A stretch of 16,596 nucleotides of DNA from Chromatiales bacterium (GTDB lineage: Bacteria; Pseudomonadota; Gammaproteobacteria; Chromatiales; Chromatiaceae): assembly GCA_024639625.1 (NCBI GenBank), contig JAHEIA010000002.1:1-16596 (forward strand). The letters are read 5' to 3'. Numbering within the stretch: position 1 is the first letter of the stretch; each line of letters starts with the position of its first letter. A model generated the notes under the pieces. The model did no database searches, was not told the DNA's origin, and saw nothing but the letters and a program-made list of their open reading frames with translations. Shown here piece after piece: positions 1,497 through 16,596 of this stretch. The translations under genes and the position numbers were made by a program.

Positions 1497-2228
1497 CTAA
1501 CTGCCAAACACCCAGCGCAGCGCAAAGGGCAGCGCGAACGCGGAAACCAAAGCCGTCAGCCCCATGGCTAGCGCAGAAAATGCACCCGCGAGGTCGCTGA
1601 TCTGAAACGCCCTCGCGGTGCCGATACCGTGCGAGTTCACGCCAAGCGCAAGACCTCGAACGCGGTCGTCTCGAACCCGAACCGCCGCCAATACGGCAGT
1701 ACCGATGACCGCGCCGAGCACGCCGGTGAGTACGACCAGCGCGGCGCTCAGTGAGGGCGAGCCGCCCGCCTTTTCCGCGATTCCCATCGCCACTGGCGCG
1801 GTCACCGACTTGGGTGCCAAAGAAATCAGGGTTTGTTTCGATGCACCAAGCCATTGTGCGATCAGGACGGCACTCGTTGTGGAAACGATGGCAGCGATAA
1901 TGATGGTCAACAGGATTGGAAGCCACAGCCTGTGTATGAGATGCAGATTTCGGTACAAAGGTATGGCGAGAGCCACTGTAGCGGGTCCCAGCATGAAGTG
2001 CACAAACTGCGCGCCGGCAAAATAGGTCTGGTAGTCCGTTTCCGTTACACGGAGGATGACCACCAGAACGATGATCGACGAGAGCACCGGATTGAACAGG
2101 GCCTTCCGTCCGCTGCGTTGAAAGATCCAGTCCGCAAGCACATACGCTGCCACTGTGAGCGTCAGGTGCAACAGCGGGCTGGCGGAAAGGTAGACCCAGA
2201 TGTCGCCGAGGGCAAGATCCAGCTCCAT
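1497..2228 (-). CDS. lrgB: LrgB/YohK-family integral membrane protein
   Basis: This 243-residue hydrophobic protein has about six to seven membrane segments and the two signatures of the LrgB/CidB family: SLAPKSVTAPVA at residues 136-147 and LGVNSHGIGTARAF at 195-208. The length is typical for the family. LrgB acts in the inner membrane together with LrgA; proposed roles are holin/antiholin-like control of murein hydrolase export and uptake or release of small acids such as pyruvate (glycolate in plant homologues). It starts three bases after the stop of the lrgA-type gene, so the two are almost certainly translated from one mRNA. The ribosome binding site is weak, consistent with translational coupling. 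The family call is firm; the substrate cannot be read from sequence. Confidence 0.93.
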   Translation of the reverse strand: MELDLALGDIWVYLSASPLLHLTLTVAAYVLADWIFQRSGRKALFNPVLSSIIVLVVILRVTETDYQTYFAGAQFVHFMLGPATVALAIPLYRNLHLIHRLWLPILLTIIIAAIVSTTSAVLIAQWLGASKQTLISLAPKSVTAPVAMGIAEKAGGSPSLSAALVVLTGVLGAVIGTAVLAAVRVRDDRVRGLALGVNSHGIGTARAFQISDLAGAFSALAMGLTALVSAFALPFALRWVFGS

Positions 2229-2231
2229 GGC

Positions 2232-2594
2232 TCAGTGTTCCCCTCGTCGACGCTCGACCCACCGGATGAGTGCCGTCATCAGTACCCCCGTCACTGCGAT
2301 GGTCACCACCGTGCTGAGCACCAGGGCCAGCGAAATTGCCAACCACTCCTCGCGCAGCATGGCGATATGCAGCATCACACCGACACCCGCAGGCACGAAC
2401 AGCAATGACAAATGAGCGAGCAGACCATCCACCACCCGCCCAAGTCCCTCGGGAATGCCTCCGCGCAGCCCAAGACCGAAAAACAAGAGAACCAGGCCCA
2501 CCACCGGACCGGGTATGGGTTGACTGCTCCAGACGACAAGCACCTCCCCGAGGAGCTGGCACAGCAGCAGGAGAGCAATAAACTTCAGGGGCAT
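2232..2594 (-). CDS. lrgA: CidA/LrgA (YohJ-like) family membrane protein
   Basis: The protein has 120 residues and four predicted membrane helices. It carries the family's IPGPVVGLVLL segment at residues 27-37 and the FVPAGVGVM segment at 66-74, and ends in a basic tail (RWVERRR), as LrgA/CidA proteins do. It is the small partner of the LrgB protein encoded directly downstream. An AGGGA ribosome binding site lies about eight bases before the ATG. A small palindrome (GCTAC-N5-GTAGC, 2632-2646) sits 38 bases upstream of the start and could be an operator or leader hairpin. No LysR- or LytTR-type regulator gene is visible beside it. Confidence 0.92.
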   Translation of the reverse strand: MPLKFIALLLLCQLLGEVLVVWSSQPIPGPVVGLVLLFFGLGLRGGIPEGLGRVVDGLLAHLSLLFVPAGVGVMLHIAMLREEWLAISLALVLSTVVTIAVTGVLMTALIRWVERRRGEH

Positions 2595-6504: not shown

Positions 6505-7638
6505 CTATTGTGTTTTCGAGCACTCCTGCAGCGCCGCGAAGGCAATATCGAATCCCGCGAGGTCCAGCGTCGCTTGCTGGGTTCGGGTTACCGGCCAGGT
6601 AGGCCAGAAACCCAAAGCCAGGGTCAGACGCTCACCCTTGGCCATAGCCACCTGCACCGCTTGCTTGGTGTAGAGGGCGCGCTCGTTCAGGATCTGCGGG
6701 GCGAAAGCGACAAGCGCACCGTCATCCACGCGAAGCCCCTGCTCCGGGTAACTAGTATCAATATTGGAGTCCGTCTTGACCAGCACTGCGTCTAGGGTCA
6801 CCTGGATCTGCGCTTTGGTCGGTTCGTAGCCATCGTAAATGGTGAACTCGCGGGACAGCAATAGGCATCGGGTCGCCCCATCCAGTGGATCGGGACGCCG
6901 GTCCAATACCCAGCCCCCGGCCAAGGTGATCGGCAGGCTCGCGTCGTCGTAGCTCAGATCGGCGATACCGGGTTTCCGCGGGATCCCGCTCGGCGGCTTG
7001 GGGATCATCGCCAGATGAACCTCTTCGTCAAGCTTTGACTCCGCGTTGGCAGTCGGGGGCGTAGCCGGCTTCACGATCTCCGCGCGGGTCTCGGTCGCGA
7101 TGCTTGTCGCGGATTCGGGCTGGGCGGTGATGCTAGCGCGCTGCCCAGATGGATCACGCGGGGACTGGGCTGCCGGTGCATCCGCGGCGGTCGCAGGCAC
7201 CGGTTCGGGGGCGTCTCGTCCGCGAGGATCGGCGGAACGGAACGCGACCTTGCTTGTTGCGGCCTGCACGGACTGCGGGGTTTCTTGGGGAGCGGCAGGG
7301 GTGGTTGCAACTGCCTCTTTCACAGTGGTCCCGCGTCCGGCTGGGGGCCGGGCATCGGTTTCCGCTTCGCCCGCTTGGATCCCCAGCGTCGCGACTTCCA
7401 GCTCTGTTTCGGTTCTCCGCTCGATTATCGCGGGGTTTGGGCGATGGTCAGCGCTTGCCTCCGGCCGTATCGCAGCCATCTCTTCAGCCGGTGTTGAGCG
7501 CGCTGGGGGAGCCGGCAGCGTGAGCTCCGCGGCGTCAGGCGGTTCTTGGGTCGGTTGGGTCACACAGGCCGCCATCAAGACCGGGACTATCAGGGTCCCG
7601 ACGTAAACACGAGCGCGTTGCGTAAACTGAGAGTTCAT
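6505..7638 (-). CDS. Lipoprotein with disordered linker and unrecognised C-terminal domain
   Basis: The protein has 377 residues. The signal peptide ends in the lipobox LMAAC, with lipidation expected at C25. Residues 26 to about 210 are rich in Ala, Pro, Thr and Glu and look disordered, as in a spacer across the periplasm. Residues 225-373 form a compact domain opening with LPITLAGGWVLDRRPDPLDG. It contains two Cys (C258 and C373) that could form a disulfide, and GFWPTWPVTRTQQATLDLAGF near the end in two pieces (343-350 and 351-363). I do not recognise this domain. It is the first gene of the minus-strand run, 45 bases before the heme-sensor gene, so it may be an envelope partner of that sensor. 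The start is an ATG with a weak GGAA/GAG upstream. Confidence 0.8.
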   Translation of the reverse strand: MNSQFTQRARVYVGTLIVPVLMAACVTQPTQEPPDAAELTLPAPPARSTPAEEMAAIRPEASADHRPNPAIIERRTETELEVATLGIQAGEAETDARPPAGRGTTVKEAVATTPAAPQETPQSVQAATSKVAFRSADPRGRDAPEPVPATAADAPAAQSPRDPSGQRASITAQPESATSIATETRAEIVKPATPPTANAESKLDEEVHLAMIPKPPSGIPRKPGIADLSYDDASLPITLAGGWVLDRRPDPLDGATRCLLLSREFTIYDGYEPTKAQIQVTLDAVLVKTDSNIDTSYPEQGLRVDDGALVAFAPQILNERALYTKQAVQVAMAKGERLTLALGFWPTWPVTRTQQATLDLAGFDIAFAALQECSKTQ

Positions 7639-8155
7639 TTCCGGGCTTCTCAGGATCGACTAGGAGCTCGGACTCACGGGACCTGGGAGTGTCGGTAACC
7701 CCTTGCCCCCTGCAATGCGGGAACCTAAAGCCACCAAATCCGTGTGAGGTTTGAGCAGACGTTGGTGGTAAATCTAACACCGATTGGCGAAAACGCCACT
7801 ACCCCCGGCTAAAAAACTGGGGTCAGGTCTAACATTCAAACACGAAAGATCACCTGCTATCGAGACCGGTTCGACGATCCGCAGCTCGCGTTCCTGCCCT
7901 CGTGAGGCAGGAGCCCTTCCTCGACTACCGCCTCGCCTTGGACGCAGTAGATGTCCGGCTGATTGGATCCGCGAGGGGGGAAACGAGCTTCGCCACGGCT
8001 CGGGTTGGCCGGACTATTTGGCAGCGATGGCAAGGCCCTGCGCCACCTCGTCCCATTCTGCATGCAGCCCGTTGAGCCTGGTCCCGGTGTCTCGGGGCGG
8101 ACCGGGCCGGAAATCCGGCTTTCGACGTCCTAGGCCGACCGCAACAGATAGCGGA
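7639..8155. other. Intergenic region with promoter of the lipoprotein-sensor-kinase run and repeat fragments
   Basis: These 517 bases separate the lipoprotein start from the end of the beta-helix gene. The 7-bp inverted repeat CCACCAA (7731-7737) / TTGGTGG (7762-7768) lies about 95-130 bases upstream of the lipoprotein ATG and could be an operator. TGGCG-AAAA-CGCCA (7785-7798) is a perfect 5-bp hairpin. A RAYT/REP-like fragment and palindrome follow (7817-7912, listed separately). GCCGG-AAAT-CCGGC at 8106-8119 lies just past the beta-helix stop and may be part of its 3' end, but has no T tract in the right direction. No convincing gene is seen on either strand. Confidence 0.5.
7817..7912. repeat. 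REP/RAYT-associated repeat fragment with palindrome
   Basis: The phrase CTGGGGTCAGGTCTAAC at 7817-7833 resembles the short sequences that flank REP-associated tyrosine transposases (RAYTs) in proteobacteria. A 7-bp perfect palindrome, TCCTGCC (7892-7898) / GGCAGGA (7906-7912) with a seven-base loop, lies 59 bases further on. No transposase frame is left. I read it as a mobile-element scar or solo REP unit; the match is from memory of the motif. Confidence 0.35.
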
Positions 8156-9028
8156 TTACGGACTTGGGTCCGGGAAGTTGCCGCCGCCGTCGGTACCTCC
8201 GGAGTAGTCCGTGGTGCAGCCGGAGACTGTGTTGTTGCGATAGATGCCCGTGGCGCCATCGGCGAAGGAGATACAGTCCTGCCCGGTATCAGAGACCTCG
8301 TTCGCAATCACCATTCCGCTGGTCGGCGAATTATATAGATCGATACCGGAGGTCTGAGTCGGATACGATAGGTTGGTAACGCCGGAGACTCGGTTGTTCT
8401 TGAGCACGGCACCCGTGCCCCGTGCGTGCTCGATACCGATTGCCCAACTTGAGTCCGCTTGGGTGTCGGTTACATCGTTGTCGAGGATCCTTACGCCGTC
8501 TCCAAGCGTGGCAATCCCGTACGCGTAGTCGCCACCACCGGTGGTCACTACCTGGTTGCGTCGAACGATTGTGCCGTGTCCGAAAACCTGTATGCCGATG
8601 GCTCGGTTCTGGTCCGCCCGCACATCCTCGATAAGATGGCCAAGCGAGAGGCCGGTTGGACTCTCGAGCAGATTTATCGCAAAGTAGAATCCGCGAATGA
8701 TCCCGTTGCGGATAGTTATGTTCTTGCGGTCTTCGGCAAAGATCCCAATCGCCTGTGTCGAGGGCCCCGCTGCGAGCCCACCCAGCTTGAAACCGTTGAG
8801 ATCGATGGTGACGTTGTTAGTATTGATGGTGATCGCGTTGCCCGTCGCGATGTCAGTGCCCAGGCTTGCTTTCAGACAATATACTCCCTGGTCGGCGATG
8901 ATGTACGGTAGCGAGTCGATCACCGTGCACTCGGTGGTCTCCGCCAAGACAGGGCTGGAAAGTGCCACGCAGCATGCCAGTGCGGCGACAACACAACGGA
9001 CAGATTGGGATGAGATCGAGTATGTCAT
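8156..9028 (-). CDS. Secreted right-handed parallel beta-helix repeat protein
   Basis: The protein has 290 residues. It starts with a Sec signal peptide (hydrophobic AALACCVALSSPVLA, likely cut after A29). The mature chain opens with ECTVIDSLPYIIADQGVYCL, typical of proteins that begin with a disulfide-bonded cap (C33, C51). It then runs through NosD/PbH1-like coils: ITINTNNVTIDLNGFKLGG, ITIRNGIIRGF, GTIVRRNQV, VRILDNDVTDT, AVLKNNRVSG and GIYRNNTVSG. The Asn-rich turns and V/I-x-x-N spacing define the fold. The end is Gly/Asp-rich. Such proteins bind or cleave polysaccharide or act as surface scaffolds; no catalytic residues are obvious. AGGAG sits seven bases before the ATG. The nearest gene with the same orientation, the lipoprotein, lies 517 bases away, so this is probably a single-gene transcript. 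Confidence 0.87.
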   Translation of the reverse strand: MTYSISSQSVRCVVAALACCVALSSPVLAETTECTVIDSLPYIIADQGVYCLKASLGTDIATGNAITINTNNVTIDLNGFKLGGLAAGPSTQAIGIFAEDRKNITIRNGIIRGFYFAINLLESPTGLSLGHLIEDVRADQNRAIGIQVFGHGTIVRRNQVVTTGGGDYAYGIATLGDGVRILDNDVTDTQADSSWAIGIEHARGTGAVLKNNRVSGVTNLSYPTQTSGIDLYNSPTSGMVIANEVSDTGQDCISFADGATGIYRNNTVSGCTTDYSGGTDGGGNFPDPSP

Positions 9029-9385
9029 GGCCCTTCTCCTGTGCGTGTTCCGCCGGACCCTGACAATTGCCGAATGCGGGCGTCATGCCACCGGCAGAAG
9101 AGTTAAATTACCTCTTTATAATTAAGTATATCAGTTTGGTGGTTCTGCCCCCTTGCGCTGCCGCGGTACCGCCACCGCTTGATACTCGAGAATCGGCACC
9201 TCATATCCGACCCTTGTGCGCCTCGCAAAGTGGCGAGAAGATCGAACCCGCGCCTCGTGCAGATCACGGCGCAGTGGCTTCGGATGGGCCCGCTTTGAAA
9301 TCGATTGCCGATCCGGGGTGGCATCCCGGGGCGGATGCGCTATGGTCGGAAAGCGGGGAAGTCGATGAACAAGAGGAGAACACAA
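9029..9385. other. Divergent promoter region between beta-helix and CDGSH genes
   Basis: These 357 bases lie between two oppositely transcribed genes. On the minus side a sharply AT-rich block at 9104-9136 contains TATACT (9125-9130, minus) and TATAAA-like stretches about 90 bases upstream of the beta-helix ATG; a matching -35 is not clear. On the plus side TATGGT at about 9341-9346 is the only -10-like element before the CDGSH gene and also has no good -35. No gene was found inside. Confidence 0.4.
9373..9378 (+). promoter_or_regulatory. Shine-Dalgarno site deciding the CDGSH protein start
   Basis: GAGGAG is followed by seven bases and the ATG at 9386. It excludes the longer in-frame starts upstream (from 9305 and 9365), whose extra residues also have no counterpart in the related fusion protein. 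Confidence 0.7.
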
Positions 9386-9628
9386 ATGAGTGAAGAAGCA
9401 GTCGTCGCCCGCAAAGGGCCCTTTGCGTTCGAGGTGACGGAGGGAAAGACTTATTACTGGTGCGCCTGCGGCCGCAGCAAGAACCAGCCGGTGTGCGACG
9501 GATCACACCAGGGAACCGGTATTGACCCCCTACCCTTTACCGCAGAGAAAACCGAGACCGTCTATCTTTGCGGTTGTAAGCAGTCCGCGAACAAGCCTTA
9601 TTGTGACGGCAGCCATCAGTCGCTCTAG
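9386..9628 (+). CDS. Double CDGSH iron-sulfur domain protein
   Basis: This 80-residue protein is made almost entirely of two CDGSH motifs, each binding one [2Fe-2S] cluster through three Cys and one His: C26-x-C28 ... C37-DGS-H41 and C62-x-C64 ... C73-DGS-H77. The pattern matches tandem-CDGSH (MiNT-type) bacterial proteins related to mitoNEET, which are redox or cluster-transfer proteins. There is no signal peptide or membrane anchor, so it should be cytosolic. It is strikingly similar to the first 80 residues of the fusion protein encoded at 10435 (shared YYWC/VYWC, CGRSK-x-QP, CDGSHQG and PYCDGSH/PFCDGSH blocks), so one arose from the other by duplication or both from one ancestor. It is probably co-transcribed with the methyltransferase gene 81 bases downstream. 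Confidence 0.93.
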
Positions 9629-9699
9629 GTTCGGCGCCCGCATCTCAATCCGTGGACTAGCGGCCCTGCTTACGGTCACTGCTTCGTGAAGACGACGAT

Positions 9700-9703
9700 G
9701 AGG
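9700..9703 (+). promoter_or_regulatory. Shine-Dalgarno site for the methyltransferase gene
   Basis: GAGG with a six-base spacer precedes the ATG at 9710. The upstream GTG (9686) and ATG (9698) have no comparable site, and the family normally begins near MWDQRY. Confidence 0.45.
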
Positions 9704-9709
9704 CCGAAT

Positions 9710-10306
9710 ATGTGGGACCAGCGCTACGGCGAAGAGACCTATGCCTACGGTACTGAGCCAAACGAGTTCCTGGTTGCTATGGCGGAGGAACTACCCGCGG
9801 GAAGGCTGCTCTGTCTCGGCGAAGGCGAAGGGCGCAACGCGGTCTGGCTGGCGCAACAGGGGTACGAGGTTACTGCCGTGGATACCTCCGGGATCGGTTT
9901 GCGGAAAGCGCAACTACTGGCGACCGAGCGTGAGGTCAGAATCCGAACGGTACAGGCGGATCTTGACGATTTCGTCATCGAACCGGCGCGCTGGGATGCG
10001 ATCGTGTCCGTATTCTGCCATCTGCCTCCGGGATTGCGGGCTCGAGTGCACCGGCGCGCGGTGAACGGTCTTCGCCTCGGCGGTGTATTTCTGCTGGAGG
10101 CTTATACTCCCAGGCAGCTGGAATACGCCACCGGAGGTCCACCGACGGTCGAGCTGATGATGGACCTGGAGAGTCTGCGGGGCGAACTGGCCGGTCTTGC
10201 GTTTCTGCATGCCGAGGAACTCCTGCGAGAAGTACGCGAGGGGGAGTTCCATAACGGGACGGGAGCAGTGGTCCAGGTCGTCGCGCGGAAGCCAGGTGGC
10301 GGCTGA
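9710..10306 (+). CDS. Class I SAM-dependent methyltransferase (TehB-like)
   Basis: From ATG 9710 the protein has 198 residues. It opens with MWDQRYGEETYAYGTEPNEFL, whose first 20 residues are the usual start of small TehB/UbiE-like methyltransferases. The SAM-binding motif I is LCLGEGEGRN (34-43), with acidic D58 at the end of strand 2 (VTAVDTS) and QADLDDF at 82-88. FCHLPPGLR (102-110) and the GGVFLLE strand complete the fold. The substrate is not evident: TehB itself methylates tellurite/selenite, but many relatives act on thiols or small molecules. It sits between two CDGSH-encoding genes, 81 bases after one and 128 before the other, and is probably in the same transcript. ATG 9698 or GTG 9686 are possible longer starts. 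Confidence 0.88.
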   Translation: MWDQRYGEETYAYGTEPNEFLVAMAEELPAGRLLCLGEGEGRNAVWLAQQGYEVTAVDTSGIGLRKAQLLATEREVRIRTVQADLDDFVIEPARWDAIVSVFCHLPPGLRARVHRRAVNGLRLGGVFLLEAYTPRQLEYATGGPPTVELMMDLESLRGELAGLAFLHAEELLREVREGEFHNGTGAVVQVVARKPGGG

Positions 10307-10434
10307 ACCGCAGCACTGGAGAGCTGGAACGCGTCGGCATTGTGCGAACGTGACCCGCTCCCTAACCAAGCTACTAATGGGGGGTGGCAGATCGGAATGC
10401 ATCGCGGGGAACAAGCAACTGCTGGAGTAACCCA

Positions 10435-12675
10435 ATGAAAGCACCGAAGATCGCGGACACTAAGCCGATACCGGTCGAGCTGAAGGCTGGGACTACCGTT
10501 TACTGGTGTTCCTGTGGTCGATCGAAGACCCAGCCCTTGTGCGACGGCTCTCATCAGGGCAGCGAATTCACCCCCCTAGCCTTCACCCCGGAAAAGGACG
10601 ACAAATATTTCCTCTGCCAATGCAAACACACCGGCAATCCCCCGTTCTGCGACGGCAGCCATAAGCAGATCAGCGATGCGGACCTGGATGCCCAGGAAGG
10701 GCTGGATACGGTCTGGCACAAGGTCGCGGAGCCGAACGACTTGCGGGATGGCGAGGTGCGAACCGCACAGGCAGGAAGCAAAAGCCTTGCGCTCACCCGC
10801 TTCGACGGGAGCTATGGCGCCCTGGATAACGCCTGTCCGCACCAAGGAGGCCCGTTAGGCGAAGGTTCCATCGAATGTACCGGCGAGGGCGACTGCTGGC
10901 TGCGCTGCCCCTGGCATGGCTGGGATTTCCACCCCCTGACTGGGAAATCCCCCGGCAGCTTTGGCGACGGGGTGGCTATTTATCCCGTCGACGAGCGCGA
11001 CGACGGGGTCTATGTCCAGGTCAAGGAGCGCCGGGAGCGGGTGCGTACGGTCTCCGACGTCATGATCGAGACCCTGGTGAACTGGGGGGTAAGCCATGTT
11101 TTCGGCATGGTGGGTCACTCCAACCTGGGCCTGGCGGACGCTATCCGCGAACAGGAGGCCGCAGGCAAGCTGACCTATATCGGGATCCGCCATGAGGGGG
11201 CGGCGGCCTTCGCTTGCTCCGGCTTCGCCAAGCTGACCGGTCGCCCCGCGGCGTGCCTGAGCATTGCCGGACCGGGTGCAACCAACCTGCTCACCGGTCT
11301 GTGGGATGCCAAGGTCGACCGGGCACCGGTGCTGGCGCTAACCGGCCAGGTCAACACCCAGGTCTTCGGCCCGGGGGCTTTCCAGGAGATCGATCTGGCC
11401 GACGCCTTCTCCGCGGTCAGCGCCTTCAGCCAGACCGTGCTGCCGAACAGCCGGCACGCCGAGTTGATGACGCTGGCGCTCAAGCACGCGGTGGTGGAAC
11501 GGGACGTGTCCCACCTGATCTTTCCGGACGAAGTCCAGGTAATCCCCGCGGCGGAGGGTGCAGCGCCTTCGGCGCCGGATGGCCGCCTAGGGCACCTGGA
11601 CATCGCCCCGTCGGAGACGAGTATTCAAGCCGCAGTGGCGCGAATCAGGGTTGCCGAGCGGCCCGCCATCGTGGTCGGGTACGGTGCCCGCGAGCCGATG
11701 GACGCCGTCATCCAGCTTGCGCAGCGTCTCAGTGCACCCGTGCTGACCACCTTCAAGGCAAAGGGGCAGATTCCCGACGATCACCCGCTGGCGGCGGGGG
11801 TGCTCGGGCGCAGCGGGACCCCGGTGGCCAGCTGGTGCATGAACGAATCGGATCTACTGATCGTTTTCGGGGCCTCGTTCTCCAACCATACCGGCATCAC
11901 GCCGAAGAAGCCCATCATCCAAGTGGATTTAGATCCCATGGCGCTGGGTAAGTTTCATCCAGTGGAGGTGCCGGTGTGGGGTGAAATCGAGGTCACCGCA
12001 CAACGTCTGCTCGCCGAACTGCCGGCTACCCTTGCGGCCGTCGATCAACGCCCTGCAATCGCCGAACGCCAGCGCCTGTGGCGCGAGGAAAAGGTCCGCC
12101 GCGCCGAACGCGACCGGGGGCATGGGGTAAGCTCCGCTGCGATCTTCGCCGCCCTGTCCCGAGCCTGCCCGGAGGACGCGGTGATCGCCGTGGATGTGGG
12201 CAACAACACCTATTCGTTCGGCCGCTACTTCGAGTGCCAGCGACAGAGTGTTTTGATGTCCGGTTATCTCGGTTCCATCGGCTTTGGCTTTCCCGCAGCC
12301 ATGGGGGCCTGGGCGGCAACCCAAGCCATTACGGCCCAGGCAGAACGCCGGGTGATCTCCATCAGCGGCGACGGCGGTTTTGGCCAATATCTTGCGGAAT
12401 TCACCACCGCTGTGAAGTACGGCATGAACATCACTCATGTGCTGCTGAACAACAATGAACTAGGCAAGATCTCGAAGGAGCAACGGGCGGGAAACTGGCC
12501 AGTTTGGCAGACCTCCCTGCACAACCCGGATTTCGCTGAGTTCGCCCGCAACTGTGGCGGTCACGGCGTGCGGGTGGACACCGCCGGGGAGACGTTGGAA
12601 AAGGCGCTGCGCGAGGCGATCGCCCACGAGGGTCCGGCGCTGGTGGAGATTATTTCCGACGTCGATCTAGTTTGA
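10435..12675 (+). CDS. CDGSH-CDGSH-Rieske-ThDP enzyme fusion
   Basis: One uninterrupted frame of 746 residues. Residues 1-80 hold two CDGSH [2Fe-2S] motifs (C25, C27, C36, H40; C61, C63, C72, H76). Residues about 93-198 are a Rieske ferredoxin domain with C134-P-H136 and C158-PW-H161. Residues about 204-746 are a full ThDP enzyme of the pyruvate oxidase/acetolactate synthase superfamily: Pyr domain with the activating Glu in RHEGAAAFA (E254) and GPGATNLLTGL (279-289), a central domain (about 395-530), and a PP domain with GDG (645-647) and NNN (672-674). The expected reaction is decarboxylation of a 2-oxo acid, with carboligation or oxidation. The clusters suggest one-electron transfer to or from the ThDP intermediate, which is inference. 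The start is ATG 10435, with GGAG seven bases upstream. No signal peptide: cytosolic. Substrate and flavin content are unknown. Confidence 0.92.
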   Translation: MKAPKIADTKPIPVELKAGTTVYWCSCGRSKTQPLCDGSHQGSEFTPLAFTPEKDDKYFLCQCKHTGNPPFCDGSHKQISDADLDAQEGLDTVWHKVAEPNDLRDGEVRTAQAGSKSLALTRFDGSYGALDNACPHQGGPLGEGSIECTGEGDCWLRCPWHGWDFHPLTGKSPGSFGDGVAIYPVDERDDGVYVQVKERRERVRTVSDVMIETLVNWGVSHVFGMVGHSNLGLADAIREQEAAGKLTYIGIRHEGAAAFACSGFAKLTGRPAACLSIAGPGATNLLTGLWDAKVDRAPVLALTGQVNTQVFGPGAFQEIDLADAFSAVSAFSQTVLPNSRHAELMTLALKHAVVERDVSHLIFPDEVQVIPAAEGAAPSAPDGRLGHLDIAPSETSIQAAVARIRVAERPAIVVGYGAREPMDAVIQLAQRLSAPVLTTFKAKGQIPDDHPLAAGVLGRSGTPVASWCMNESDLLIVFGASFSNHTGITPKKPIIQVDLDPMALGKFHPVEVPVWGEIEVTAQRLLAELPATLAAVDQRPAIAERQRLWREEKVRRAERDRGHGVSSAAIFAALSRACPEDAVIAVDVGNNTYSFGRYFECQRQSVLMSGYLGSIGFGFPAAMGAWAATQAITAQAERRVISISGDGGFGQYLAEFTTAVKYGMNITHVLLNNNELGKISKEQRAGNWPVWQTSLHNPDFAEFARNCGGHGVRVDTAGETLEKALREAIAHEGPALVEIISDVDLV

Positions 12676-13638: not shown

Positions 13639-14127
13639 ATGACTGCGCAGATCAAACTCTTCAAACCCCATCGCCCGTCGATTCCCGCCGCACGGAACGC
13701 CGGAGATGCTACGGCCAGGGGGCTGTTTCGCAGCCTGGGGCTGGTCCAGGACCGGGCGGCCCTGGTCAAGCAGATCCACCAGGGTTTCCCTGCAGGGGTG
13801 ATCGAGAAGCTGGCCGATGAACTTCGCGTCCCGCAGCAGACGCTGCTGAAGGTGACACGGATTGCCCCGGCGACCTTGACCCGGCGCCGCAGGAGCCCCT
13901 CCGGCCTGCTCTCGTCCGCGGAGAGCGACCGGGTATATCGCGTCGCTGCCGCTTACCGCCAGGCCCTCCAGCTGTTCGAAGACGACGCCGAAGCGGCTCG
14001 TGGCTGGCTCAGCGAACCCGCGAAGGCGCTGAGCGGCACCCCTCCCTTGCAGCATCTGGATACCGAGGCCGGGGCGGCCGAGGTGCGGGATCTGGTAGGT
14101 CGCCTTGAGCACGGCGTCTACACCTGA
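13639..14127 (+). CDS. Xre/MbcA/ParS-type antitoxin of a RES toxin
   Basis: The protein has 162 residues. Residues about 38-90 look like a helix-turn-helix DNA-binding segment (FPAGVIEKLADELRVPQQTL followed by Arg-rich TRRRR at 81-85). Residues about 95-162 match the MbcA/ParS/Xre toxin-binding domain (DUF2384), with the pattern W-LSEP--AL-G--PL--L-T--G---V---L-R-E-GVY. The family neutralises RES toxins, often by covering the active site with the extreme C-terminus, and represses its own operon. The stop codon overlaps the toxin start by one base (TGATG), so translation is coupled. The ribosome binding site is weak; the ATG at 13639 is the only sensible start because the earlier ATG at 13626 meets a stop at once. 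Confidence 0.92.
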   Translation: MTAQIKLFKPHRPSIPAARNAGDATARGLFRSLGLVQDRAALVKQIHQGFPAGVIEKLADELRVPQQTLLKVTRIAPATLTRRRRSPSGLLSSAESDRVYRVAAAYRQALQLFEDDAEAARGWLSEPAKALSGTPPLQHLDTEAGAAEVRDLVGRLEHGVYT

Positions 14128-14609
14128 TGCGCGCGTACCGACTGGTGAAGGCGCGTTACGCCGACAGCGCCTTGGACGGCTCCGGCGCCAAGGCGTACGG
14201 CGGCCGATGGAACAGCAAGGGGGTGGCGATGGTGTACGCCTCCGATACAGTCTCGCTGGCCGTTCTCGAGCTGTTGGTGCACCTTCACCGAAACGAAGTG
14301 CTAAATCACTACCGGCTGTTCGGTCTGGATCTGCCCGACGCGAGCGTGATGCGATTGGACCCGCGTGCGCTTCCCGCCGATTGGCGGAGCGATCCACCAC
14401 CCTCCTCCACGGCGGCGATCGGTGACGAGTGGATCTCCCGCCGCCCGTCCCTGGGACTAGCGGTCCCCAGCACGCTGGTGCCGCAGCAACGCAACCTGCT
14501 CTTAAATCCGGCGCATCCCGACTTCGAGGCCTTGGTTGCCGGGGCATCGAGCGAGCCGTTCAGCTTCGACCCGCGATTGGTTGAAGCGGACGGTGATTCT
14601 GCCGCTTGA
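14127..14609 (+). CDS. RES-domain toxin (NAD+-degrading family)
   Basis: The protein has 160 residues, the usual length. RES-family features: YRLVK near the start (R5), YGGRWNSKG (24-32), the VYASD strand (Y37), SLAVLELLVH (43-52) with the conserved Glu (E48), SLGLAVPS (108-115) with the Ser, and QRNLLLNPAHPDF (121-133). Characterised RES toxins such as MbcT deplete NAD+ by phosphorolysis or hydrolysis; those residues line the NAD pocket, so this copy appears intact and potentially active. It is coupled to the antitoxin gene by a one-base overlap. The 49 bases after its stop lead straight into the 3' end of the convergent diheme gene, without a clear terminator. Confidence 0.93.
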   Translation: MRAYRLVKARYADSALDGSGAKAYGGRWNSKGVAMVYASDTVSLAVLELLVHLHRNEVLNHYRLFGLDLPDASVMRLDPRALPADWRSDPPPSSTAAIGDEWISRRPSLGLAVPSTLVPQQRNLLLNPAHPDFEALVAGASSEPFSFDPRLVEADGDSAA

Positions 14610-14658: not shown

Positions 14659-16596
14659 TCAGGGGGAGAAAATCTCCAGTCGACCCCCTTGCCCGATGCT
14701 CACGCCTGACTCTAAGACAACCACCGGCGCCTGCAGAACCAATCGAGCGCCGGCCGGTACGCTCACATTGGGCCCGACGATGATCGAACAGGCGGCGGCA
14801 TGCTGGGACAGCCCCGGACCTAGGTTCAGGTTATACAGCGTGAGCGGCGGCTGGATGCAGTCGCAGGTCGGGGTGGTCGCAATCCAGTCGGTTACAAGCG
14901 CAAGCCCCGTCGGATCGGTTAGATTGCTGCCGAGCGGCGGCATGCCGTAGGCGTCCCGGCGCGCCGCACGCGCCCACAGGGTCGAGCGCGCCGGGTCTCG
15001 GGGCGCGAAGATACTGGCCCCAGAGATACCCAGATCGCCGGTACTCGGGACAACGCCGCAAATGCCCATGTCCGAAAACGCGCTCGCATACAGCAGATCG
15101 ATATTGTTGTTGGTGGTCCCGCCCGGCCGGTGGCAGTGGGAACAGTTGCTGTGCAGCCACGCCCGTGCCCGAGCATGGGGATTCGCAGCCAGGTCGTCGA
15201 GGCGCGGATAGACCGGCAGGTTTTCCGGCGGCTCGGGCAGCGGGGAGGAAAACAGACCGATCGCATCGAAGGTGGCGAGCTGATTGTCGGTGCGTCCGGT
15301 GCTCGGATAGGTAAAGTCCCGATTCATCTGGGCCGTTTCGGGCCCCAGGGAACGGCCGGCGGCCGCGGTGTGGCAGCGCAGGCATCCCGGGGTGCTCGGA
15401 AATTCCCATTCCTGTTGGCCAATCCATTTGCTTTTGCCGCCGACGACCCAGGCCGCGTCCGTCTGGGCATCGTCCCACTCGAAGCTGTAGCCGCCCCAGT
15501 CGCCATCGCTGTGGCGCGCCATGATCCGGGTTTCGACGCGTTTCCCATTGAGCGAAAAGGTCTTCATCAGCACGGTACCGATCGGGAACACCCAATCGCC
15601 TTCGGGGCTGACTTCAATCGTTGTGCCGTTGGGCAAGGCGAGCCAGCGCAGTTTTGCAGCCCTGTCGGACCAGAACGGCACGTTCAGATCGTAGGGGATC
15701 ATCGCTGGCGCCGGTTGTGTCGGGTCCGCCGGGTCGACGCACCCAGTCTCGGACAGGAATTGAGGAAAGACAACCGGTGGCAGTGACCCGGCATCGACCA
15801 GCCGGTAAATACTGCCTTGGGTGTAGTCGAGCAGATACAGCTCACCGTCGTGGCCCTCGGCGAAGCTGGAGATCACCCGTCCGCTGTCGAGCAGTACCTG
15901 GGAAAAAGGCCCGCCCGCCGGGTTGTAGAACACACCCCAAATGCGCCCGCTACAGTAGTCTCCATAGACGTAGGTTCCTTCCAGCTGGGGAATGTCCGCG
16001 CCGCGGTAGACATAGCCCCCGGTTACCGAGCAGCCTTCCGCATGGCTGTATTCCGCGATCGGCGGCAACATGCCGGCAGAGTCGCAACTGGCGGCGTTGT
16101 AGCACTGGCTGCCCTCCATGATGTCCCAGCCGTAATTGCCGCCCAATGCCACCCGATCCACCTCCTCCCAGAGCCCCTGACCCACATCCCCTGCCCAAAG
16201 GTCTCCTGTGCCCCGGTCGAAGCTCCAGCGCCAGGGGTTGCGGAATCCGTAGGCGTAGATCTCCGGGCGACCGCCGCCGGCTGCGAACGGATTGTCGGGC
16301 GGGATGGTGTAGGGGGCGCTTCCATCCACATCGATGCGCAGAAACGCCCCCAGCAGGGTGTTCGTGTTCTGGCCGTTACCGAGCGGGTCCCCTCCGGAGC
16401 CGCCATCGCCGAATCCGATGTAGAGGTACCCGTCGTTGCCGAAGGCGATGCCTCCGCCGTTATGGTTGCCGAAGGGCTGATCGACACTGAGAATGATCTG
16501 TTCCGAGGTCGGGTCCAGGGTTTGCCCGCCGGGCATCGTCTGAAACCGGGAGACCCGCGAGACCAGAGGATTGCCGGGCGCCGTGTAGGACAGGAA
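14659..16596 (-). CDS. PQQ-type sugar dehydrogenase-like beta-propeller fused to SO2930-type diheme cytochrome region (N-terminus missing)
   Basis: The 645 visible residues continue beyond the right edge. The first 270 or so are a glucose/sorbosone-dehydrogenase-like propeller: HNGGGIAFGNDGYLYIGFGD, IPPDNPF, YAYGFRNPWRWSFDRGTGDL, GDVGQGLWEEVD, GGNYGWDIMEG. The following part has two c-type heme motifs, CLRCH (residues 405-409) and CSHCH (485-489), and a GMPPLG motif (about 559-564) that may give a Met ligand. This order matches the SO2930/HNE_0200-type family, presumed periplasmic or outer-surface proteins passing electrons from an oxidised substrate to a cytochrome. The last 55 or so residues are a separate beta-rich tail with ACSIIVGPNVSVPAGARL and ESGVSIGQGGRLEIFSP, resembling tails of secreted proteins. 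Substrate and true activity are unknown; some propellers of this group have lost PQQ binding. Confidence 0.88.
   Translation of the reverse strand, partial: FLSYTAPGNPLVSRVSRFQTMPGGQTLDPTSEQIILSVDQPFGNHNGGGIAFGNDGYLYIGFGDGGSGGDPLGNGQNTNTLLGAFLRIDVDGSAPYTIPPDNPFAAGGGRPEIYAYGFRNPWRWSFDRGTGDLWAGDVGQGLWEEVDRVALGGNYGWDIMEGSQCYNAASCDSAGMLPPIAEYSHAEGCSVTGGYVYRGADIPQLEGTYVYGDYCSGRIWGVFYNPAGGPFSQVLLDSGRVISSFAEGHDGELYLLDYTQGSIYRLVDAGSLPPVVFPQFLSETGCVDPADPTQPAPAMIPYDLNVPFWSDRAAKLRWLALPNGTTIEVSPEGDWVFPIGTVLMKTFSLNGKRVETRIMARHSDGDWGGYSFEWDDAQTDAAWVVGGKSKWIGQQEWEFPSTPGCLRCHTAAAGRSLGPETAQMNRDFTYPSTGRTDNQLATFDAIGLFSSPLPEPPENLPVYPRLDDLAANPHARARAWLHSNCSHCHRPGGTTNNNIDLLYASAFSDMGICGVVPSTGDLGISGASIFAPRDPARSTLWARAARRDAYGMPPLGSNLTDPTGLALVTDWIATTPTCDCIQPPLTLYNLNLGPGLSQHAAACSIIVGPNVSVPAGARLVLQAPVVVLESGVSIGQGGRLEIFSP

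Follow-up and report, generated by a model that had tools for sequence, protein, structure and literature searches.

A CDGSH-CDGSH-Rieske-ThDP fusion protein from a Chromatiales bacterium and its possible part in 2-oxo-acid oxidation

The fusion gene in its window

Here we discuss a single bacterial gene that joins two CDGSH motifs, a Rieske domain and a complete ThDP-dependent enzyme, together with its relatives and their recurrent neighbours. The stretch analysed (hereafter the window) is 16,596 nucleotides long and comprises positions 1-16,596 of contig JAHEIA010000002.1 from the Chromatiales bacterium assembly GCA_024639625.1. The fusion, its parts and the two genes before it are as follows.

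9404..9625, plus strand: small stand-alone protein carrying a CDGSH pair that shares 53% identity with the pair in the fusion (open reading frame list; Pfam)
9686..10306, plus strand: SAM methyltransferase, Methyltransf_25 with weaker TehB and TPMT matches (Pfam; NCBIfam-type profiles)
10435..12675, plus strand: CDGSH-CDGSH-Rieske-ThDP fusion gene, 746 aa (translation; Pfam; AF2 model)
10456..10557, plus strand: first CDGSH [2Fe-2S] motif, C25, C27, C36, H40 (Pfam; alignment)
10594..10665, plus strand: second CDGSH [2Fe-2S] motif, C61, C63, C72, H76 (alignment)
10714..10947, plus strand: Rieske [2Fe-2S] domain of the dioxygenase-ferredoxin type, C134, H136, C158, H161 (Pfam; alignment)
11047..11397, plus strand: TPP_enzyme_N with activating Glu E254 and active-site loop F316-Q317 (Pfam; alignment; AF2 model)
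11623..12009, plus strand: TPP_enzyme_M with a possible flavin/nucleotide site; R459-S460-G461-T462, H485-T486-G487 and D498 conserved (Pfam; alignment)
12193..12651, plus strand: TPP_enzyme_C with the Mg/ThDP motif G645-D646-G647...N672-N673, K678 and E682 (Pfam; alignment)

The first-pass annotation had described one continuous frame of 746 residues, and the translation of 10435-12675 (plus strand) indeed passes through all 746 codons without an internal stop; the open frame extends upstream to a GTG at 10384, and the ATG at 10435 matches the aligned start of the relatives (M in 183/200 rows). All domain models score above their Pfam cut-offs, with zf-CDGSH covering two stretches (2.6e-18), Rieske (PF00355) at 4.6e-16 and TPP_enzyme_N, M and C at 1.1e-32, 1.2e-33 and 3.6e-36, respectively. 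The ligands claimed for two CDGSH clusters and one Rieske cluster were confirmed by Pfam and by an alignment of 200 members, all twelve being present in the fusion protein, where cluster binding is predicted. The two C-x-C-x(8)-C-D-G-S/T-H motifs lie about 20 residues apart, as in tandem CDGSH (type 6 CISD) proteins, and the tandem matches PDB 3tbn (E 3.3e-25); similarly, the C-x-H and C-x2-H ligands of the Rieske domain occur in 200/200 members and this part matches CarAc 1vck (E 1.6e-8). Judged from the sequences, these E-values and the conservation rule out a chance match. The AF2 model has a mean pLDDT of 88.9 and a pTM of 0.78, with low confidence at residues 308-317, and no hydrophobic segment was found in the fusion protein by the measure used for the small membrane partners described below. 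The fusion is an assembly of known domains on a known fold.

The open reading frame of the small CDGSH protein spans 9305-9628 and its start is uncertain; at locus L001 the fusion is likewise preceded by a small CDGSH gene and by a methyltransferase related to this one, with further sequence between those two. Elsewhere the window holds an LrgB/CidB-like and LrgA/CidA-like gene pair (1497-2594, minus strand), an Xre/MbcA/ParS-type antitoxin and RES-domain pair (13639-14609, plus strand; Pfam) and a GSDH (glucose/sorbosone dehydrogenase) domain protein (14659-16536, minus strand) whose C-terminal half contains two C-x-x-C-H motifs and which may be a fusion with a c-type cytochrome.

Spread of the family and its variable N-terminus

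A protein search with query residues 1-205 gave 7699 matches among 8000 scored candidates, not necessarily all ThDP fusions; among the best 120 of the 7699 (query included), 115 exceed 650 aa, the remaining five are shorter and without the C-terminal TPP model, and by pattern two CDGSH motifs occur in 119 and the Rieske motif in 120. A genome scan confirmed 558 stretches, 80 of which are listed as loci and carry all counts out of 80 given here; their titles name Gamma- and Alphaproteobacteria, Acidobacteriota, Planctomycetota, Nitrospirales, Gemmatimonadota, Polyangia, cyanobacteria and others, and most of the records are MAGs. Several bacterial phyla contain relatives at 55-89% identity, as do haloarchaeal plasmids, the family being carried by 5 plasmids among 135 plasmid records with a match, four haloarchaeal (59-62% identity) and one from Mycobacteroides (55%), measured over the Rieske-ThDP part. 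Its occurrence is patchy, with 5/299 evenly drawn genomes of the phylum (own genome included) and 34/210 genomes of the order, and phage records held ThDP enzymes only at <60% identity, none covering 80% of the query. The architecture and spread check proposed in the first-pass annotation thus returned Rieske-ThDP chains across several phyla and plasmids, CDGSH being found in 16/80 listed loci. A misassembly or frame artefact is ruled out by the open frame and by relatives on independent contigs, which also bear out the fusion's presence in related genomes. Where relatives are named, their annotation is only generic ('thiamine pyrophosphate-binding protein', 'acetolactate synthase large subunit-like', 'pyruvate oxidase'), and no functional description of the fusion was found in the open-access literature (subscription journals lying outside the scope), within which the earlier statement that none was known holds. 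The family is a real, widespread and apparently uncharacterised bacterial enzyme. Among individual copies, those on haloarchaeal plasmids L109 and L110 have merA within ~7 kb, L109 having an arsenic resistance gene as well, and L045, a MAG contig with the label Thermoleophilia, falls among Woeseiaceae relatives in a quick tree, which may point to misbinning.

The N-terminus is where members differ. The Rieske motif is present in 80/80 listed loci and the CDGSH pair in 16/80, and of the three [2Fe-2S] clusters that had been proposed, the ligands are all present here, but only the Rieske centre is a trait of the family and CDGSH is accessory. On the same quick tree of relatives, in which the reference branches are saturated, the CDGSH label needs 3 changes, 2 of them forced by well-supported branches. 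In at least 4 of the 16 CDGSH loci (L012, L018, L022, L059) Pfam places Fer4_19 beside CDGSH, and since Fer4_19 accompanies CDGSH in these four, the N-terminus seems able to accept various Fe-S modules. These four chains measure 871-889 aa and contain two CDGSH stretches, Fer4_19, Rieske and the ThDP domains; an 861-aa Rieske-ThDP variant in L071 (7347-9932) begins with ~220 residues without a Pfam match. In L013 (8001-11863) the CDGSH pair of the ThDP protein has 76% identity to that of the adjoining GltS protein, against 52% to the ThDP CDGSH pair of L001, as if the pair had been copied within the locus.

Active site and recurrent partner genes

The 200 aligned members comprise the 80 loci, 115 database proteins (query included) and 5 plasmid proteins, some of them near-duplicates (L006 and P0045, for instance); the references were PoxB, IlvI, Gcl and Oxc of E. 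coli. The four Rieske ligands, E254, F316, Q317, D498, E682 and K678 are invariant in 200/200, and the cofactor motif is nearly so (G645 in 196, D646 in 199, G647 in 200, N672 in 182 and N673 in 191 of 200), so that the complete ThDP enzyme with E254 and a GDG-NN motif read from this sequence earlier is upheld by the alignment and the TPP_enzyme_N/M/C matches. The E254 column is Glu in PoxB, IlvI and Oxc and Val in Gcl; E682 is shared with PoxB alone among the four references, and H228, R459 (199/200) and K678 are unlike all four. When a profile of 62 relatives was aligned to L. plantarum POX (PDB profile search at 1e-20; nothing at 1e-100), R459 fell on an Arg of POX and K678 on the position occupied by Trp in 2ez4, an entry with 'variant F479W' in its title. 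We take POX Phe479 (PoxB F465) to be important for electron transfer to FAD, and the Arg, Ser and Gln of POX presumably hold phosphate; our search of the open-access literature found nothing on the phosphate-holding and Phe479 roles in POX. PoxB aligned over residues 2-529 of 572, the fusion chain ending before the PoxB C-terminal tail, which is the membrane/quinone part of that enzyme.

Structure comparison covers residues 201-746, the N-terminal domains resting on Pfam and sequence matches, and recovers the POX-group ThDP fold over the full domain; among the PDB entries aligned to the AF2 model, PoxB, HKA synthase and C. glutamicum PQO come first and all 50 in the list fall within 4 Z units, and identity to POX-type structures is 25-28% in the structural alignments. 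The activating Glu and the Glu at the POX E483 column are both there (E254 and E682, 200/200), and D498 and its neighbours are conserved in the flavin-site region, as far as sequence columns tell. However, the NCBIfam pyruvate-oxidase cut-off (PRK08611) is missed by far (387.9 vs 742 bits) and Lys678 takes the place of the Phe at POX 479 / PoxB 465 in 200/200 members, and because of these two failures the fusion is not classed as a POX. It also scores below the AHAS cut-off TIGR00118 (293.7 vs 538.35 bits) and has Glu682 where IlvI has Trp, which in AHAS we assume to belong to the second-substrate site; a housekeeping acetolactate synthase is ruled out by this missed cut-off and by a separate AHAS in the own genome (G000:C530, PRK06466 at 974.6 bits against a cut-off of 951). 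No POR-type domain was matched in Pfam, only the TPP_enzyme_N/M/C, CDGSH and Rieske models. By its residues, then, the active site is pyruvate-oxidase-like, a 2-oxo-acid oxidoreductase role would fit it, and bound FAD or ADP is possible at the conserved flavin-site region, ADP being named as a ligand in titles of related lyase structures. The first-pass annotation's suggestion of a third solution fared less well if it is to mean an enzyme without FAD, as the POX flavin-site columns are conserved too.

What is new here, beside the fusion, is its partners: glutamate-synthase-like (GltS-like) neighbours, mostly with their own Rieske or CDGSH N-terminus, a Ferric_reduct+Rieske protein and small membrane proteins. 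A GltS-like FMN gene lies in the fetched flank in 34/80 listed loci and in none of the other 46/80, some flanks being short; with flanks of at least 3.5 kb on both sides, it is present in 24/57 and absent from 33/57. It is on the same strand in 31/34 loci, and its N-terminus is Rieske in 27, CDGSH in 3 and partial or untyped in 4; Glu_synthase (PF01645) was found by Pfam in all three neighbours scanned, and C-x5-C-x4-C in 30/32 size-selected neighbours, the other two being ThDP paralogues. CDGSH-GltS neighbours stand solely beside CDGSH-ThDP (3/3: L001 and L002, which are close kin, and L013, which is apart) and Rieske-GltS neighbours solely beside CDGSH-less ThDP (27/27), a count that leaves out G023 (the L002 locus) and G406 (the L001 protein at 100%), and only the CDGSH half of this match is informative because every ThDP member has a Rieske domain. 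As a strong argument module matching is weakened, since 30/30 typed adjacent pairs agree, yet exceptions exist unlinked: CDGSH-ThDP and Rieske-GltS occur apart in the own genome, G371, G506 and G507. Also, GltS neighbours are rarer beside CDGSH-ThDP (3/16 vs 31/64, Fisher 0.047).

Across genomes, a GltS-like protein is found at 1e-130 in 30/299 of the phylum sample, 9 in the Rieske form (typed by match start and counted by hand), and these nine include 5/5 ThDP genomes (Fisher 6.5e-9), with the two genes ~2.5 kb apart in four of the five. In the order it occurs in 23/34 ThDP genomes vs 22/176 others (Fisher 1.1e-10, kinship ignored; 45 by hand, leaving out matches at 43-45% identity in G407 and G410). 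No GltS-like gene was found in 11/34 ThDP genomes of the order, including the single-contig genome G510, which rules out obligate pairing; in all 11 the match begins in the CDGSH part, and the 14 order genomes whose match starts at residue 80-102 (two genera, 13 from one) all have the gene. On two of the four haloarchaeal plasmids a 'glutamate synthase-related protein' lies within ~4 kb, Halorarius halobius being a cultured relative with the two genes on a single plasmid, and none was found in the fetched 7 kb of the other two or of the Mycobacteroides plasmid. PF01645 has no match on the window's contig, where no GltS-like gene adjoins the fusion; in the own genome a Rieske-GltS gene is fragmented over the ends of two contigs, C261 and C458, and after it comes (L121, 995-1474) an interrupted DUF5996 frame that may be a draft-assembly error.

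Other neighbours in the 80 listed loci are DUF5996-like proteins (30/80), antiporters (17/80) and, in the same 8/80, a Ferric_reduct+Rieske membrane protein and a 255-aa Cys-motif protein. The latter, without a Pfam match and with a conserved EICDGKC...HRACANLC, is paired with Ferric_reduct+Rieske in L131-L134 (in L132 the pair occupies 7394-8161 and 8158-9213, minus strand); L131 and L132 have three Rieske proteins per cluster (Rieske-GltS, Ferric_reduct-Rieske and Rieske-ThDP), as does L133 by similarity. Furthermore, in six of 27 loci of CDGSH-bearing relatives, several of them duplicates, similar 75-77-aa proteins without a Pfam match follow on the same strand (L202, L203, L205, L208, L210, L211), directly adjoining (0 bp) except in L208, where the gap is 139 bp; that of L202 (10508-10741) contains two hydrophobic segments, and its start codon, an ATG, shares bases with the stop codon of the ThDP gene. 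Two genomes of the phylum (L132 and L133) encode a protein of 93-96 aa that contains hydrophobic segments and whose reading frame overlaps the ThDP gene start, and no small membrane gene was found downstream of the fusion in the window. The recurrent GltS-like neighbours with the same Fe-S attachment hint at a shared electron-transfer system, and the linkage could also mirror a common stress regulon and not one circuit.

Possible electron routes and known systems

With the single chain, its ligands, the ThDP and POX-like residues, the fold and the recurrent partners established, we give a probability of about one half to the explanation that the fusion is a membrane-linked 2-oxo-acid oxidase from which electrons leave through the Rieske domain. 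It would be a ThDP-dependent 2-oxo-acid oxidoreductase of the pyruvate-oxidase type, with pyruvate as the first guess, and, having no membrane segments itself, would be tied to the membrane or to partner redox proteins. ThDP would be activated by E254, the 2-oxo acid would then be decarboxylated, and the electrons of the carbanion/enamine intermediate would reach the fused Rieske cluster, probably by way of a flavin bound in the conserved site that resembles POX. From the Rieske cluster they would leave one at a time for an outside acceptor, with the CDGSH clusters as a further step in some relatives. This acceptor may be the Ferric_reduct+Rieske protein of the membrane, the GltS-like FMN protein with its Rieske or CDGSH module, or a small membrane partner together with the quinone pool. 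We infer the cluster and flavin occupancy, the substrate, the direction and order of electron flow and the identity of the acceptor. The explanation is weakened because Phe479 is replaced by Lys (200/200), because the pyruvate-oxidase cut-off is missed so widely (387.9 vs 742 bits), because the GltS-like gene is absent from 46/80 flanks and 11/34 order genomes, and because the window fusion adjoins neither this gene nor a downstream small membrane gene.

That the protein is instead a redox-neutral ThDP carboligase, decarboxylase or lyase, with Rieske and CDGSH as redox or oxygen sensors switching the enzyme or its assembly, we consider unlikely, even if AHAS, HKA synthase, 2-hydroxyacyl-CoA lyase and glyoxylate carboligase reach nearly the same fold score, the electron-transfer Phe of POX has given way to an invariant Lys, and the flavin bound by AHAS need not be redox-active; F316-Q317 with E682 is the PoxB combination among the references compared, and since the GltS-like and Ferric_reduct partners that share the Rieske module come from redox families, electron transfer is more plausible than sensing. 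Less probable again is a special form of the 2-oxo-acid oxidase explanation (or one with reverse flow) in which Rieske and CDGSH are a shared one-electron link and 2-oxo-acid oxidation drives the reductive reaction catalysed by the GltS-like FMN/[3Fe-4S] protein, an oxidation-amination couple. The C-x5-C-x4-C motif of 30/32 neighbours, the 27 Rieske and 3 CDGSH N-termini among 34, the co-occurrence (5/5 in the phylum sample; 23/34 vs 22/176 in the order) and the module match of adjacent pairs (CDGSH 3/3, Rieske 27/27) speak for such a couple, but 11/34 order ThDP genomes, G510 among them, do without the partner, the module match rests on few independent CDGSH cases (L001/L002 as kin, L013 apart), four genomes (own, G371, G506, G507) combine CDGSH-ThDP with an unlinked Rieske-GltS, GltS neighbours are rarer where CDGSH is present (3/16 vs 31/64), and a shared stress regulon could account for the linkage. 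We know of no Rieske domain that serves as a cluster donor, and with Rieske ligands kept in 200/200 members it is improbable that the main task of CDGSH and Rieske is to store, transfer or assemble clusters in the NEET manner, or to support quaternary structure, beside a ThDP domain of ordinary metabolic role, although CDGSH is accessory and stands with Fer4_19 in four loci, and NEET domains can, by the main text of PMC5859297, pass on electrons or whole clusters.

Returning to the 2-oxo-acid oxidase, a wider and more doubtful idea is that interchangeable Fe-S plugs (Rieske, tandem CDGSH, CDGSH with Fer4_19) on POX-like, GltS-like FMN and membrane Ferric_reduct-type proteins might form a widespread redox system not described before, a single short-range one-electron circuit that would link the membrane with both 2-oxo-acid oxidation and a reductive step dependent on flavin. 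The recurrent partner genes make the proposed wiring testable, and the tandem CDGSH (NEET) domains of bacteria, on whose function there is no agreement, would gain a role if it were true.

Several described systems come close. The main text of PMC3174974, in which the words 'thiamin' and 'Rieske' do not appear, describes type 5 CISD proteins (a CDGSH pair with a glutamate-synthase FMN domain) and type 7 (CDGSH with DUF1271); the former likewise join a CDGSH pair of this kind to an oxidoreductase, and a type 5-like protein is the direct neighbour of the ThDP fusion in L001, L002 and L013, whereas the enzyme of the fusion is ThDP-dependent and a Rieske domain is present as well. Similarly, the main text of PMC5859297, where 'thiamin' and 'TPP' are absent, names CDGSH proteins with Rieske, Rieske_2, Fer4_19 or Glu_synthase domains and so shares the co-occurrence of CDGSH and Rieske. 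The Rieske ferredoxins of ring-hydroxylating dioxygenases (CarAc 1vck) are of the same Rieske sequence type, free there and fused here. With 2-oxo-acid:ferredoxin oxidoreductase (OFOR) the likeness would be one of functional analogy, a ThDP enzyme with an Fe-S electron exit, but the fusion has no POR-type domain and its Rieske/CDGSH motifs are of the [2Fe-2S] and not the [4Fe-4S] kind. AHAS (IlvB/IlvI) shares the fold and the G-x-x-G-T stretch of the middle domain and differs in its Trp at column 682, where the fusion has Glu. PoxB, POX and pyruvate:quinone oxidoreductase share the ThDP fold, the activating Glu, the F-Q loop, the Glu at the POX E483 column and the Asp at the flavin site, whereas the fusion always has an N-terminal Rieske domain and sometimes CDGSH, carries Lys for Phe479/F465 and stops where PoxB continues into its C-terminal tail. 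In PoxB electrons pass from FAD to quinone, in POX from FAD to oxygen and in OFOR from [4Fe-4S] clusters to ferredoxin; a Rieske exit from the ThDP intermediate, if true, would be a wiring of 2-oxo-acid oxidation unlike all three.
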